Shown here one piece after another: positions 44,427-50,993 of a DNA stretch of 51,066 nucleotides. The notes under the pieces are model-generated. The model had not been told where the DNA came from, ran no database searches, and saw only the letters and a list, made by a program, of their open reading frames with translations. The DNA is from Opitutales bacterium. Lineage in GTDB: Bacteria > Verrucomicrobiota > Verrucomicrobiia > Opitutales > UBA953. Location: positions 1 to 51,066 of the forward strand of contig JAILGB010000016.1 of assembly GCA_024697185.1 (NCBI GenBank), read 5' to 3'. The translations under genes and the position numbers were made by a program. Each line of letters starts with the position of its first letter. Position 1 is the stretch's first letter.

Positions 44427-45347
44427 ATGATATTTATCGAACTTTCAGACCAACTGGGAAACCAAATGTTTTCCTATGCGTCAGCAAAAGCTATTGCGAC
44501 TAAAAAAGGCTATGTCTTTAAATGCAGCCGTCGTTTTTTGGCGGCAAAATATATCAACGACTCCGACAAAACGCACGGATCCGATTTGCCAAAAATTTTT
44601 AATATTCCGCAAGAGGAAATTTTGAAAGAGGACGAATTTGAACTCGTCAAAAAATTTCCCTGCATTGCCGAAAAACCTCTTGCCGAACGGACGACAACTT
44701 TTGAACAAGCCCTTGCCGACTGCCCGGACAATGTCAGACTTGGCGGGCATTTGATCTCTACAAAATATTTTGACGACATTCTCCCTACGGTGCGCACATG
44801 GTTCCAATTTCCCCAAGACACCCGGAGTTCAGCCCAAAACGAAATTGCCCGGATCAAAAATGAGCATCCCGGGAAAACGCTTTGCGCCGTCCATTTTCGT
44901 GTCGGTCGCGACTACACCAGACTCGGATACAAAATTGACGGAGACTACCAACAAAAAGCGGCAACGCGCGCCCAGTGCGAGAGGCAAAATATTGTCTTTG
45001 TCGTGTTTTACGACCGTATGACAAAAGAAGTGACACGCTTCTTAAAACAATTTCCTTGTGTTCTCTCTCACAACTCGATGATTGTCGATATGTGCGCGAT
45101 CTCGCTGTGCGATTGCGCGATCATCGCCAATTCGTCGTTTTCAATCTGGAGCGCATTGTTGTCGGCAAAAGAGGATTTTAAAGTTTGGCGTCCTTCCTGT
45201 TATCCCGTTTCGTTTAACTACGCCCCGACAGATTGTTTTCTTGAAAAATGGGAAATCGTTCCCGCCAAGCGCTCGCTCGACAGCACGATTTGGATGCTGT
45301 TTCGCGTCGGCTTGGCGCGTTTGAAAAACTTGCTGTTAAAACGCTAA
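44427..45347 (+). CDS. Glycosyltransferase family 11 (alpha-1,2-fucosyltransferase-like)
   Basis: The 306-residue protein starts MIFIELSDQLGNQMFSYASAKA, the GT11 signature (GxGNQMFxYA, here QLGNQMF). It carries VHFRVGRDY near residue 154, corresponding to the HxRRGDY GDP-fucose-binding motif, and IANSSFSIWSALLS, corresponding to the NSSFSWWGAWL block. GT11 enzymes add L-fucose in alpha-1,2 linkage. The motif residues differ slightly from consensus, so activity is likely but not certain. It stands alone on the plus strand. Confidence 0.82.
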   Translation: MIFIELSDQLGNQMFSYASAKAIATKKGYVFKCSRRFLAAKYINDSDKTHGSDLPKIFNIPQEEILKEDEFELVKKFPCIAEKPLAERTTTFEQALADCPDNVRLGGHLISTKYFDDILPTVRTWFQFPQDTRSSAQNEIARIKNEHPGKTLCAVHFRVGRDYTRLGYKIDGDYQQKAATRAQCERQNIVFVVFYDRMTKEVTRFLKQFPCVLSHNSMIVDMCAISLCDCAIIANSSFSIWSALLSAKEDFKVWRPSCYPVSFNYAPTDCFLEKWEIVPAKRSLDSTIWMLFRVGLARLKNLLLKR

Positions 45348-45369: not shown

Positions 45370-46400
45370 CTACCGTCCTCCGCTGAGGACGGAGCATAGC
45401 CGTGGGCAAAATCGCCTTAACAGCGCATAAACCGCAAGCGATGAGGAATAGATAAAAATGAATTCCAAAATGGTAAGCGCTATGACACAGGCGGAATTAT
45501 GCGGCAGCCAAAGCGCATAAAGCGATTTAAAAATCTGGTCAAAAAACATCTTTGGCAAAATATCGTGGAAGCAATAAATAAACATTGACGCTCCCGCGAG
45601 ATAATTCACCCACGCGGGAACGCCCCAACGCTTCGCAAAATAAATCGCCCAGGAGAAGCAAACAACAACCCCAATCGCGATTATAGTTATCTTCCAATAC
45701 GGAAAATCAAACAAACCGCAAAAACAAAGCCACGAAAATACTATCCAAACCAATAACAAAATCCATTTATTGAGATTTTTAATCACTTCGACGATGTCAA
45801 TCTGCCGAATAGATATAAACGCGCCTACGGAAAACCAAAAAATTCCCACACCTCCACTAAATGATAGTCTCCCAAATTCGTTAACAAGAAGATAAAATCC
45901 TGAAAGGATTAAAAAAACAATCCCTGTTTTTTTTATAAGCCAATAAATAAGCGGGGAAAGAATTGCCAAGATAATAAGATTGTTTACAAACCACAATGCC
46001 GCAAAAGATTTTGTAATTCCCAAATAATCAAACAAGGTGAATTTATCAAAAGAAATCGCCACTGTCTCAGTCCTCATTCCCAAGCCCAAAATCAAAACCG
46101 CCCAAATGCCCATTGAAAAATAATTGAAAATAAGATAGGGCAATAACAAGGAGCGGGAACGGGATTTAAGTTTTTTCAAATAAATTTGCCAAGATATCCC
46201 CCCCCCCCCCGGAAGAAGAGATAGCCGCTAATTAAGAAAAATGCGGGAACGCAAACATTGGTGAACAAGCGATAAAAGCTTTGAAAATTTTGCGCCTCAA
46301 TTTGCGTCGCGTCAAAAAAATGAACATGAATCGCGACAACGCCCGCGCACAAAAAAGCGCGCAACCAGGCAATCGCGTCAAAAACTTCGTTTTTCTCCAT
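45370..46400 (-). pseudogene. Membrane acyltransferase (acyltransferase 3 family), split by a poly-G frameshift (phase-OFF)
   Basis: The first part (46400 down to 46176) starts MEKNEVFDAIAWLRAFLCAGVVAIHVHF and ends in FFLISGYLFFRGGGG, then hits an early stop. The second frame (46179 down to 45370) continues LKSRSRSLLLPYLIFNYF and has about nine membrane helices, as expected for the rest of an OafA/acyltransferase-3 protein. The break falls on a run of 13 G (coding strand). With 14 or 11 G the two frames would join into one protein of about 340 residues. Such enzymes O-acylate surface polysaccharide. The break may be a reversible switch, a fixed mutation or a sequencing error. Confidence 0.82.
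46198..46210 (-). repeat. Poly-G tract (13 G on the coding strand), candidate phase switch
   Basis: An uninterrupted run of 13 C on the plus strand lies exactly where the acyltransferase frame changes. It is the longest single-base run in the window. Confidence 0.85.
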
Positions 46401-46403
46401 AGT

Positions 46404-47585
46404 TTAAAATTCTTCAATCGCAATTTTTTGAAATTCCTCGAGGGAATTGTCGCGCAGATAGTCGTTCCCGCGGATCAAAGTTTTCGCCCGTTTGACCGTT
46501 CCCGCGTCCAAGGCGGCAAGCGCCGAGGCGATCGCCAAAGCCCTCGCAGCCGTTCCCGCGGGCGCCGTCAAAACTTTTTGCGCCTGCAAATCCTCGATAA
46601 AAAGCCCCAAGCGATAACGCTTGACCAATTTTCCCAAGAGCCCGCCGCGCGGTGCGATTACGGGAACGCCCGTCGCCGCCGCATACGCGATCAACCCGCT
46701 GCTCTGCTCCGTGTTGTGATACGGGATCAAAATCGCCGTCGAGCTCGCCGCCAAATTTTTCAAAAACTCATACGCGACAAATTCATCTTTGACGATGATA
46801 TGCGCGCCCTTTGCCCGAGCCGTCTCAAGCAGCGCATAAAAGCGTTCCCGAAGTCCCTTGCCCACACGCCCCGCAAAGACAAAATAATCATCCCGGAAAA
46901 CTTGAGGGAACGCGCAAACCGCCTCCAAAATATCCAGCGTTCCTTTGCGGGTATCCAATCCGCCAAAATGCGAGAACAGACGCGCTCCCGCGGGAACGCC
47001 CAGCTCCGTCCGAACTTCCCCGGCGGGAGACTGTGCATCAATCGCCACGGGATCGGGGAGAAATGCGAATTTTTGCGTCCGATACAACTTGTTCAAATAA
47101 CGCGGCACCACCTTGTCGTTGAGCAAAAAAACCCGCCCGATGCACGGCGAAAATCTGAAAAGCAGGTATTTGAGCACATCCAATATTTTTGTCTTAAGCC
47201 CGCTTTTTTTCCAGCGGTAAAGATAAATCATATAGACGATCCCGCTCACCTTGACTCCCCGCGGCAACATAAACGGCAGCCACGGCAAAAAACTCATCAG
47301 CGCGCTCAGCAAAACATCCGTCGCGCCCTGTTCCCGCACCAAACGGCTCAGATTTTGACTGTCCCAGCGGGCGCCCGTCTTGGCGGGAACGGCAAAATAG
47401 ACAAACGAAATATTTTCATTTTTTTGCCAAAGCAGTTTTTGGGAACGCTCAACAAACGATTCGGGAACGGCAAAAACAAATTGGCGTTCCCGCGAAGCGA
47501 GCTCCAACGCCCGCTCATAAAAATGATGCAAATATTCCAGATGATGTCCGGAAACGCTCGAATCGTAAATTAAGGTCTTTGACAT
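46404..47585 (-). CDS. Glycosyltransferase family 4
   Basis: The 393-residue protein starts MSKTLIYDSSVSGHHLEYLHHFYERA. In the C-terminal domain it has LFSHFGGLDTRKGTLDILEAV, IPYHNTEQSSGLIAYAAATGVPVIAPRGG, corresponding to the GT4 donor-site region. Its ATG overlaps the end of the upstream O-antigen ligase gene by 16 nt, so translation is likely coupled. The acyltransferase start lies directly downstream at 46400. Confidence 0.82.
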   Translation of the reverse strand: MSKTLIYDSSVSGHHLEYLHHFYERALELASRERQFVFAVPESFVERSQKLLWQKNENISFVYFAVPAKTGARWDSQNLSRLVREQGATDVLLSALMSFLPWLPFMLPRGVKVSGIVYMIYLYRWKKSGLKTKILDVLKYLLFRFSPCIGRVFLLNDKVVPRYLNKLYRTQKFAFLPDPVAIDAQSPAGEVRTELGVPAGARLFSHFGGLDTRKGTLDILEAVCAFPQVFRDDYFVFAGRVGKGLRERFYALLETARAKGAHIIVKDEFVAYEFLKNLAASSTAILIPYHNTEQSSGLIAYAAATGVPVIAPRGGLLGKLVKRYRLGLFIEDLQAQKVLTAPAGTAARALAIASALAALDAGTVKRAKTLIRGNDYLRDNSLEEFQKIAIEEF

Positions 47586-48988
47586 GGGGGCACACTTTGA
47601 AGAACATTATTGCCGTCAATAAAACCACTATCTTTTGGCATTCCTTTTTTAAGGAGATACAAAATGACAATTAATGTCAATAGTCCAACACCATCACTTT
47701 GTGTAACCACTTGAGAAAGGCGATATATAACGAATATTGCCACCCACCAATTTTCATTTCCCGACTTTAACAATTTATAACAAAGCACAGGTGCCACCAA
47801 AATCGGAATAAGCCCAAGCCAGCCCAATATAAAGCCATACTGAAAAAACTGGTCGATAATTTCATTATGCGAATAACCGAATGTCGTGCTATGCACCCCC
47901 ATCACCGGATGCTCCAACGCCAAGTTCCAATATTCCTCCCAAAGTTCCGTTCGATAAGAAGTGTCTCCTTCCTCCAAGGTCAACAACAAGCGCTTCTCGA
48001 TAATCGGATTAAAAATACCGATAAGACTAACAATCTTAAAACGAATCGCATAACCGACGGCTCCCAAAATCCCAACAAGGGGCAACGCAACAATCGCATA
48101 TTTTGTAAATTTTACCAATGTATAAAAACCCAAAAATACGATTAGTCCTAAAAACGGTCCGCGCGACCCTGCTTTGATTGACAAATAGAGCCCTATAAAA
48201 ATCCCTAAAATCGCAAAAACCTTTTTCCAATTAAAGCCTTTTACAATCTCCATCAAATAATAGAAGGAAATGATTGCCGTCGTCATCCCAAAACCGCCCA
48301 ACGCTTGAGTATGCAACGAAACGCCCGCTGTAGCCCGAGAACCACTATATTCTCGATTTCCCAAATCGCTCGCAATCGATATACTACGATTCATTGTCCA
48401 AAGAGAACAGATGCTACCAACAAGACTCGCCCAAAACAACCATTTAATCGCTTTTTTAAAATCAATTAAATGTATCGTTCTCAAAACAGAAAACATCGAT
48501 AGCGCCCCAAGTACAAAATAGCCCCAATATTTTACGGGAGTACGGATTGTATCAATATTCCACGCTGTCGGGAAACTCATTGTCCTCGCAAAAAATTTTA
48601 CATCAATGAAGACGCGCAAAAGCCCCATTACCCATAAAACGATCAGCAGGGTATGCAAACCCGTCCACTGCATCTTCCCTCTCTGATCCTTGCCCACGAC
48701 AAATAAACAATACGCCGCTACCACCATTTGAAACCCGCGAACAGGATAGTTAATCAGCCAAGAATCCACTATCGACAAGCCCAACAAACCCGACAACGGC
48801 GACAGCAGCGCACCACAAAGCGTGTAACCGCAGAGATAAAAAATAAAATTCAAAGTCGCCCAATTGTTCTTGGGCGCTTCAGGCAGCGCTTCGGGGGGAG
48901 GCGGCGGGAACGGAGGCTGCACAAATGCCCCACCTTGGGGAGGCATCGGGTGATTTTGAAACCGGGATGGCGGCATTGGTGACTGCAT
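47570..48988 (-). CDS. O-antigen ligase/polymerase-like membrane protein (Wzy/WaaL family)
   Basis: A 472-residue protein with about 11-12 membrane helices and a large loop with the family's GSRGPFLGLIVFLG and HPVMGVHSTTFGYSHNEIIDQFFQYG, which resembles the Wzy_C/O-antigen ligase pattern. It has an unusual cytoplasmic Pro/Gln-rich N-terminal tail of about 40 residues (PPFPPPPPEALPEAPK). It polymerises or ligates surface polysaccharide at the inner membrane. An origin outside the GC-rich core is possible: the iterated word is almost absent from it. Confidence 0.82.
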   Translation of the reverse strand: MQSPMPPSRFQNHPMPPQGGAFVQPPFPPPPPEALPEAPKNNWATLNFIFYLCGYTLCGALLSPLSGLLGLSIVDSWLINYPVRGFQMVVAAYCLFVVGKDQRGKMQWTGLHTLLIVLWVMGLLRVFIDVKFFARTMSFPTAWNIDTIRTPVKYWGYFVLGALSMFSVLRTIHLIDFKKAIKWLFWASLVGSICSLWTMNRSISIASDLGNREYSGSRATAGVSLHTQALGGFGMTTAIISFYYLMEIVKGFNWKKVFAILGIFIGLYLSIKAGSRGPFLGLIVFLGFYTLVKFTKYAIVALPLVGILGAVGYAIRFKIVSLIGIFNPIIEKRLLLTLEEGDTSYRTELWEEYWNLALEHPVMGVHSTTFGYSHNEIIDQFFQYGFILGWLGLIPILVAPVLCYKLLKSGNENWWVAIFVIYRLSQVVTQSDGVGLLTLIVILYLLKKGMPKDSGFIDGNNVLQSVPPCQRP

Positions 48989-49151: not shown

Positions 49152-49733
49152 TCAATCCAAGGTTTTGACGATCTTCGCGGGATTGCCCACGAGCACGCTC
49201 CCCGCGGGATAATCGCCCGCGGGAACAACCGAGCCCGCGCCGACAACGCAATGGTCTCCCAACTTCGCCCCGCGCAAAATAATCGAATCGCCGCCGATAA
49301 AACATTTTTCGCCGATAACGATCGGAGCCGTTTTTTCCGTTCCCTTGTCAGGATTACGTTCCCGCCAGTCGAGCGGATGGAAATCGTGGTCGAGGATTTT
49401 GGCGTTCCCGCCGATCAAGGTTCCCGCGCCGATTTTAATCGATGTTTTGGCGTGGAGAGTCGCGGCGCTCATCCCGACGCGGTCACCGATCTCAATCGTC
49501 GCTCCCGGACAGACGACAATAATGGAACGCTGGCGCAAACCGTAGAGATTGGAAGACGGATCGGAATTGACGACAATCCCCCCCCCCCACTTGATCGTGC
49601 CGCGCAAGGTAAGAAGCGGATAGCCGTTAAAAACAACGCGCCCGCGCAGCCGCCACATCTCGCGCCAAGCCTTAAGCACCTGCCAAAGCGCGTAGGCGTT
49701 CCCGTGAAAAAAATTATAAAAAAATCGAATCAT
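49152..49733 (-). CDS. Hexapeptide-repeat O-acetyltransferase, with an in-frame poly-G tract (phase-ON)
   Basis: A 193-residue left-handed beta-helix acetyltransferase. Hexapeptide repeats run from about residue 65, with the catalytic His in DHDFHPLD and the closing GNPAKIVKTL. It resembles WcaF/colanic-acid-type acetyltransferases. A run of 11 G on the coding strand encodes KWGGGIV near residue 48; slippage by one base there would truncate the protein early. At the sequenced length the frame is intact. Its own promoter precedes it. Confidence 0.85.
   Translation of the reverse strand: MIRFFYNFFHGNAYALWQVLKAWREMWRLRGRVVFNGYPLLTLRGTIKWGGGIVVNSDPSSNLYGLRQRSIIVVCPGATIEIGDRVGMSAATLHAKTSIKIGAGTLIGGNAKILDHDFHPLDWRERNPDKGTEKTAPIVIGEKCFIGGDSIILRGAKLGDHCVVGAGSVVPAGDYPAGSVLVGNPAKIVKTLD
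49578..49588 (-). repeat. Poly-G tract (11 G on the coding strand) in the acetyltransferase gene
   Basis: Eleven consecutive C on the plus strand lie within the coding region of the acetyltransferase, currently in frame. Confidence 0.85.
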
Positions 49734-49946: not shown

Positions 49947-50993
49947 TTAAATATATTTCAACTTATTATTTATTTTTCTCAACTTATTTTTCAAAAACGA
50001 CATAAAATTTAAAACCGAACGACATGGTTTATGCAAAAAAGACGGAAGCCTTAAAATATGCAAAACCAACCTCATCCAACTTGGAAGAATTTCTTTTTTA
50101 TTTTCTTCTCTTAATTTTTCGCAAAACTTCAAAAAACGAGAATCTTTTGGATTAAAATCACTACAATTAAAAAACATATTTGAAAGAGCTGTCCGCGCGT
50201 AATTTCGCCATATTACACGATCTATATAAAAATCCGAAACTTTAAGTAAACCATTCAAAAAATCAAGGACATCTAAAAAATAATTCGTTTTATAGATAAA
50301 TTTCCCCGTTGCGCTTGCCGAATTTTTAAAATAAAGATAAATATACTGATCTACATAAACAGCTTTACAAATCTTTTTAGCCAATTGCAAATTTGCGAGT
50401 TGATCTTCTCCATAAACAATCCATTTAGGAAGAATAAGAGCCCGACTCTCTTTAAATAAACATTTTCTAATTATTTTACAGATTGGGCCAATACACCATA
50501 TTGTGCCACACATTTTTGCGAAAACCAAACCAGTCCCAACTATTATATTTGGATTCTCGTTTTGTTTAAATTCAAAATCTCTATCATAAGAGATATATCT
50601 GGCACCCTCCACCAGATCAACATCTGCTTCTACGTGCGAGAACAATGTTTCGAGTGCATATGGCGCGATCATATCGTCGCTGTCCACAAACATAATCCAC
50701 TCGCCGCGGGCTGCATCGACTCCGTCGTTTCGGGCGGCAGAAACCCCGCCGTTGGCTTTGTGGATGACGCGGACACGGGCGTCGCGGGAACGGTATTCGT
50801 CGCAAATCTCACCGCTCTTGTCCGGAGAGCCGTCATCGACCAAAATCACCTCAAAATCCTCAAAGGTCTGAGCCAAAATCGAATCCACACAAGCCCGCAG
50901 GTATTTTTCAACCTTGTAAACCGGCACAATCACCGAGATCGTCGGCGAAGACGCGGGATTTGTCGCGGGAACGGAAGAAGGGGGAAGAGTCAT
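49947..50993 (-). CDS. Glycosyltransferase family 2, mosaic base composition
   Basis: A 348-residue GT-A protein with the nucleotide-binding SVIVPVYKVEKYLRACVDSIL at about 25-45 and the metal-binding DSDD at about 104-107. The N-terminal third is GC-rich and has copies of the iterated word. From about residue 115 onward (about 50,640 down to 49,947) the sequence turns strongly A/T-rich with no copy of the word and many Lys/Asn/Ile/Phe codons. This suggests that the C-terminal, acceptor-specific part was acquired by recombination. The sugar specificity is unknown. Confidence 0.85.
   Translation of the reverse strand: MTLPPSSVPATNPASSPTISVIVPVYKVEKYLRACVDSILAQTFEDFEVILVDDGSPDKSGEICDEYRSRDARVRVIHKANGGVSAARNDGVDAARGEWIMFVDSDDMIAPYALETLFSHVEADVDLVEGARYISYDRDFEFKQNENPNIIVGTGLVFAKMCGTIWCIGPICKIIRKCLFKESRALILPKWIVYGEDQLANLQLAKKICKAVYVDQYIYLYFKNSASATGKFIYKTNYFLDVLDFLNGLLKVSDFYIDRVIWRNYARTALSNMFFNCSDFNPKDSRFLKFCEKLREENKKEILPSWMRLVLHILRLPSFLHKPCRSVLNFMSFLKNKLRKINNKLKYI

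Follow-up and report, generated by a model that had tools for sequence, protein, structure and literature searches.

A G13 tract dividing an AT3 acyltransferase gene: a candidate phase-variable locus in an uncultured gut Opitutales bacterium and related tracts across its genus

The window, i.e. the whole analysed stretch of 51,066 nucleotides, belongs to the draft genome of an Opitutales bacterium (G000; 1.59 Mb, 32 contigs). A gene for an AT3-type membrane acyltransferase is divided in it by a run of 13 G. This G13 tract is very probably a slipped-strand contingency locus, caught in the OFF state as assembled, which is the best-supported reading of the sequence. The repeat is longer than is expected by chance in a gene, and its length sets the frame of an otherwise intact gene, as is looked for in a contingency locus. 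Phase variation was proposed in the first-pass annotation; the candidate is supported by an excess of long runs at glycan genes, by recurrence in the genus and by orthologous tracts of variable length.

The two halves of one acyltransferase-3 protein had been described as lying in different frames. This is borne out by the open reading frames, by adjoining profile matches and by intact homologues. The 5' part matches Pfam Acyl_transf_3 (PF01757) at profile positions 3–60 (35.8 bits) and the 3' part at positions 70–324 of 326 (48.2 bits), both above the gathering score, i.e. as adjoining parts of one profile. The halves align as one protein with full-length relatives encoded in the same genome (contig C7) and in three genomes of the family (G010, G016, G022); two homologue rows (L013, L017), read in a wrong frame, were disregarded. 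The shift falls exactly on the 13-G run, as claimed earlier (Table 1). Codons upstream use frame 2 of the tract and codons downstream use frame 1; the two frames overlap across it. A through-reading frame needs a tract length of 2 modulo 3, which 13 does not fit, and the frame arithmetic of the earlier claim that G14 or G11 restores one protein is correct. The length of 13 is the assembled value, and an assembly can misstate a homopolymer by one or two bases. The G13 junction is the sole visible lesion of the gene: more than 1 kb is free of any other stop or shift, and the 825 bases downstream of the tract stay open.

The tract site is a short loop that follows the second hydrophobic stretch and comes ahead of the basic stretch preceding 'LLxPY'. 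The alignment with intact relatives is gap-free when this loop consists of three glycines. The R/K-X10-H motif of the first membrane segment, described for AT3 proteins (PMC9558356), is present in the 5' part. The strict RXXR motif of the first cytoplasmic loop is not found in the split protein, where basic KSRSR stands in its place, and is also missing from most intact relatives in the alignment; RXXR was treated as a shared functional motif of AT3 proteins, not as the definition of the family. Solved structures searched by sequence gave no match to the split protein. No relative was found by a scan of the genome contigs with the 3' half. A close orthologue was not found in the genus, so that the comparison of G13 itself between species is without a partner and the gene is regarded as accessory. 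Neither tandem nor inverted repeats stand out around the gene; an invertible switch is therefore not indicated.

The split gene is the last of a minus-strand glycan gene run, in which it is preceded by genes for a family 2 glycosyltransferase, a hexapeptide acetyltransferase (with a G11 tract), a Wzy_C protein and a glycosyltransferase-like protein; the stop of the latter gene lies 3 bases ahead of the AT3 ATG. The hexapeptide acetyltransferase has its best likeness to WbbJ-type LPS O-acetyltransferases (NF007240, 73 bits, far under the cut-off of 243). Its relative in G007 (L191) carries a G11 of its own, at another site and out of frame; the separate sites suggest independent gain.

Slippage at replication would add or remove G's and thereby bring the acyltransferase in or out of frame. 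With 13 G (OFF), a 74-aa stub followed by a stop would be produced. At a length of 2 modulo 3 (ON), the predicted product is a protein of approximately 342 aa with a glycine run in the short loop that leads up to the conserved basic stretch and 'LLxPY'. Because the gene is the last of a glycan gene run, the enzyme most likely O-acylates a surface polysaccharide, the substrate being guessed from the neighbour genes. The G13 and G11 tracts of the one gene run could give up to four coat states. The benefit of switching may be evasion of phage or of the immune system. Within-strain slippage, enzyme activity, substrate and benefit are the parts of this reading that we infer.

Table 1. Coordinates of the split gene, its gene run and the seven long G/C runs of the genome (positions in the window unless a contig is named).
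Feature	Position	Strand	State or remark	Basis
G13 tract (C13 on + strand), proposed slippage switch; long run 1	46198..46210	-	out of frame, in split AT3 acyltransferase	sequence, frames, shuffles
AT3 acyltransferase, 5' part	46176..46400	-	ATG at 46400; 74 aa as assembled	PF01757, R14-X10-H25
AT3 acyltransferase, 3' part	45370..46179	-	other frame; 269 aa; open until 45370	PF01757, homologue alignment
Gene directly upstream of AT3	46404..47585	-	393 aa; glycosyltransferase-like by eye	no Pfam match
O-antigen ligase/polymerase family (Wzy_C)	47570..48988	-		PF04932, 34.2 bits
Hexapeptide (left-handed beta-helix) acetyltransferase	49152..49733	-	same gene run as AT3	PF00132, 43.5 bits
G11 tract in this acetyltransferase; long run 2	49578..49588	-	in frame	run search, frames
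Glycosyltransferase family 2	49947..50993	-		PF00535
Glycosyltransferase family 11	44427..45347	+	convergent, bounds gene run	PF01531
Long run 3, G11, hexapeptide acetyltransferase	contig C17		out of frame; alone, beside ATP-synthase genes	
Long run 4, run of 10 C, hexapeptide acetyltransferase	contig C12, tract at 67198		in frame	
Long run 5, run of 11 C, hexapeptide acetyltransferase of sugar-nucleotide locus	contig C12, tract at 59572		near 3' end	
Long run 6, G10, Asp/Glu racemase in glycan-type locus	contig C8		out of frame	
Long run 7, run of 10 C, glycosyltransferase/epimerase fusion (1,902 aa)	contig C28		approximately 50 bp upstream of called start	

Long runs were counted by pattern searches. 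G10 has six overlapping matches in the window; shuffled sequences average 0.22, and none of 100 has as many as six. Genome-wide, 52 G runs of at least 6, 9 of at least 8 and 7 of at least 10 are present; the lengths of the long ones are 8 (one), 9 (one), 10 (three), 11 (three) and 13 (one). From the decay of runs of 6–9, approximately 0.09 runs of at least 10 are expected against the 7 observed, so that the long runs form a class separate from the background. All seven are in or beside glycan-type genes, and five of them are in acetyl- or acyltransferases. The genome has approximately 10 hexapeptide genes and four AT3 genes; five of the seven long runs fall within these 14 (hypergeometric P ~1e-9, 1400 genes assumed). 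The frame is open through the tract on contig C28, which may lie in the 5' coding end of the fusion. The fusion itself (L204:8442-14208) unites, in a single frame, an NAD epimerase with several GT2 domains and a radical SAM domain. On contig C12, a formyltransferase-type sugar enzyme with C-terminal ankyrin repeats (L202:9674-10861) lies immediately downstream of a tract-bearing hexapeptide acetyltransferase.

Runs of at least 10 recur in the genus. Seven same-genus genomes contain 3–32 each; among other genera of the family, 0–2 are present in most genomes of g2, and from few to many in those of g4. Fifty-seven distinct runs of at least 10 were inspected in seven genomes of the genus (G000–G005, G007). 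By our own sorting, approximately 27 belong to glycan genes, 7 to restriction-modification genes and some 18 to unassigned or intergenic sequence. Families at the runs include Acyl_transf_3 (G002, G003, G005), hexapeptide and PglD-type acetyltransferases and GNAT. Also among them are PylC-like ATP-grasp, Wzy, glycosyltransferases, polysaccharide pyruvyltransferase and NAD epimerase, as well as EcoRI- and MmeI-type methylases, HsdS, Fic and PEP-CTERM proteins. A G/C run of at least 9 is in or beside the gene in 6 of the 21 AT3 matches of G001–G007. In the AT3 genes of G003 and G005 the run is at the N-terminus; two tandem AT3 genes of G006 (contig C30; L243, L250) each have a G9 at the N-terminal side, which repeats the arrangement of a poly-C N-terminus seen in G003 and G005. 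Methylases of the EcoRI and MmeI types and HsdS genes bear runs of 10–15 at six loci (L175, L178, L196, L208, L218, L222), and one HsdS gene of G005 carries two; such genes are candidate phase-variable restriction-modification systems. In G003 (contig C14), sequence next to a poly-C tract is partly duplicated and contains bases masked as N, with further tracts of 14, 8 and 15 nearby (L171:1938-2095); this locus may be misassembled or rearranged.

Tract lengths were compared in orthologous sets with the tracts masked and the flanks aligned; the differences are between species, in assembled genomes. Length differs between relatives in six such sets of the genus, the split AT3 itself being without a close orthologue, and flank identity at the length-variable sites is 81–98%. 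The ATP-grasp gene is out of frame in G003, where its tract is 12, and in frame in G004, where it is 14; G005 has 10, and the flanks are 98.5% identical between G003 and G004. In a gene common to G003 and G007, the tract of 8 is in frame and that of 12 out of frame, within flanks of 96.5% identity. Orthologous tracts are 10, 11 and 10 in a PglD-type acetyltransferase, 9 and 10 in a pyruvyltransferase, 8 and 11 in a hexapeptide acetyltransferase and 14, 14 and 8 at a GNAT/PALP junction. Some of these changes shift genes in or out of frame. A site that is kept while its length changes is what a slippage switch predicts.

An error of assembly or sequencing in the homopolymer, with the real tract constant and in frame and the gene always intact, is an improbable explanation, though the foremost of the alternatives. 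The genome is a draft in 32 contigs and homopolymers are error-prone. Poly-G artefacts also exist in some relatives: clusters at most approximately 100 bases from contig ends in G006, G016 and G056 inflate the run counts of these genomes, were handled with caution and are probably of sequencing origin. The G13 tract, however, is distant from any contig end. Independent assemblies have runs of 8 to 15 at conserved sites, and a one-base error leaves a separate long-run class confined to glycan-type genes unexplained. Even at a wrong assembled length, a tract of approximately 13 G would be expected to slip.

A plain pseudogene, in which the tract is merely the site of the first frameshift of a dead gene, is somewhat less probable still. 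It would agree with the broken frame of the assembled gene and with its accessory nature, but not with the openness of the sequence on either side of the tract. The shuffled windows make a long G run in the gene improbable without selection, and in-frame tracts exist elsewhere in the genome. Recoding at the RNA level, with transcriptional or ribosomal slippage giving some full-length protein from the 13-G gene, is very improbable: slippage at homopolymers is possible during transcription and the frames do overlap across the tract, but orthologous tracts differ in length in the DNA itself, and tracts close to the 3' end of a gene or ahead of its start leave no role for recoding.

Lost mismatch repair was considered as the cause of the tracts and rejected, since MutS1 and MutL matches are present in every genome of the genus (8 of 8; the MutS1 match of G002 is partial). 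Campylobacter is not known to possess canonical MutS and MutL. The nearest named aconitases, 82–83% identical, are those of the MAGs of Opitutales RGIG2967 (goat rectum), Opitutales RGIG7497 (water-buffalo colon) and Verrucomicrobia SIG76. They point to a gut Opitutales lineage of Verrucomicrobiota, with a herbivore as the presumptive host.

Taken alone, the split acyltransferase gene represents a mechanism and an enzyme family that are already known. The more interesting part is the set of tracts in the genus, where many long repeats occur in surface and restriction-modification genes, as in a multi-locus phasome. It is likely that this genus of uncultured herbivore-gut Opitutales possesses a multi-locus poly-G/C phasome comprising O-acetylation, other glycan steps, type I/II restriction-modification and PEP-CTERM proteins, with MutS1 and MutL kept and nothing seen that marks a pathogen, and that in the window species the switching of two acyltransferases of one gene run is independent. 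Such a phasome would belong to apparent commensals in which MutS and MutL are retained; their gut genomes are small, come from an uncultured Verrucomicrobiota lineage and hold numerous long G/C tracts in genes for the coat and for restriction-modification. In the literature searched, no paper combines phase variation, Opitutales and MAGs.

The Campylobacter comparison of the first-pass annotation fits the mechanism; the nearer precedent is Akkermansia, of the same phylum. According to the PhasomeIt article (PMC6321876) and a review (PMC8355987), the Campylobacter phasome comprises intragenic and intergenic G/C tracts in many, mostly surface-modifying genes, and to that extent resembles the set described here. 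Campylobacter differs in belonging to another phylum and in being studied in isolates, whereas the Opitutales genus is uncultured and keeps MutS1 and MutL. The oafA gene of Haemophilus influenzae encodes a phase-variable AT3 lipooligosaccharide O-acetyltransferase (PMC9558356). It is similar in being an AT3 gene of a surface-glycan pathway that is switched by repeat length and was originally recognised in a genome sequence in frameshifted form. It is distinguished by a tetranucleotide repeat, by a known substrate and by belonging to a pathogen. In Akkermansia muciniphila, a run of 10 C in an acyltransferase gene (Amuc_2098) and a G run in a capsule gene were pointed out in 2011 (PMC3048395), and a G9 to G10 change in Amuc_1413 truncates the gene and accompanies lost mucin binding, with mixed reads (PMC13055324). 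Akkermansia is of the same phylum as the Opitutales genus, also lives in the gut and likewise has G/C runs in genes for surface polysaccharides, an acyltransferase gene among them. It belongs to another order, and one gene is demonstrated in it, not a repertoire. The tracts of the Opitutales genus are longer (10–15), more numerous and genus-wide, but known from assemblies only. A genus-wide set would widen what Akkermansia shows for one gene to a full repertoire of switches and deserves follow-up more than the AT3 gene alone.
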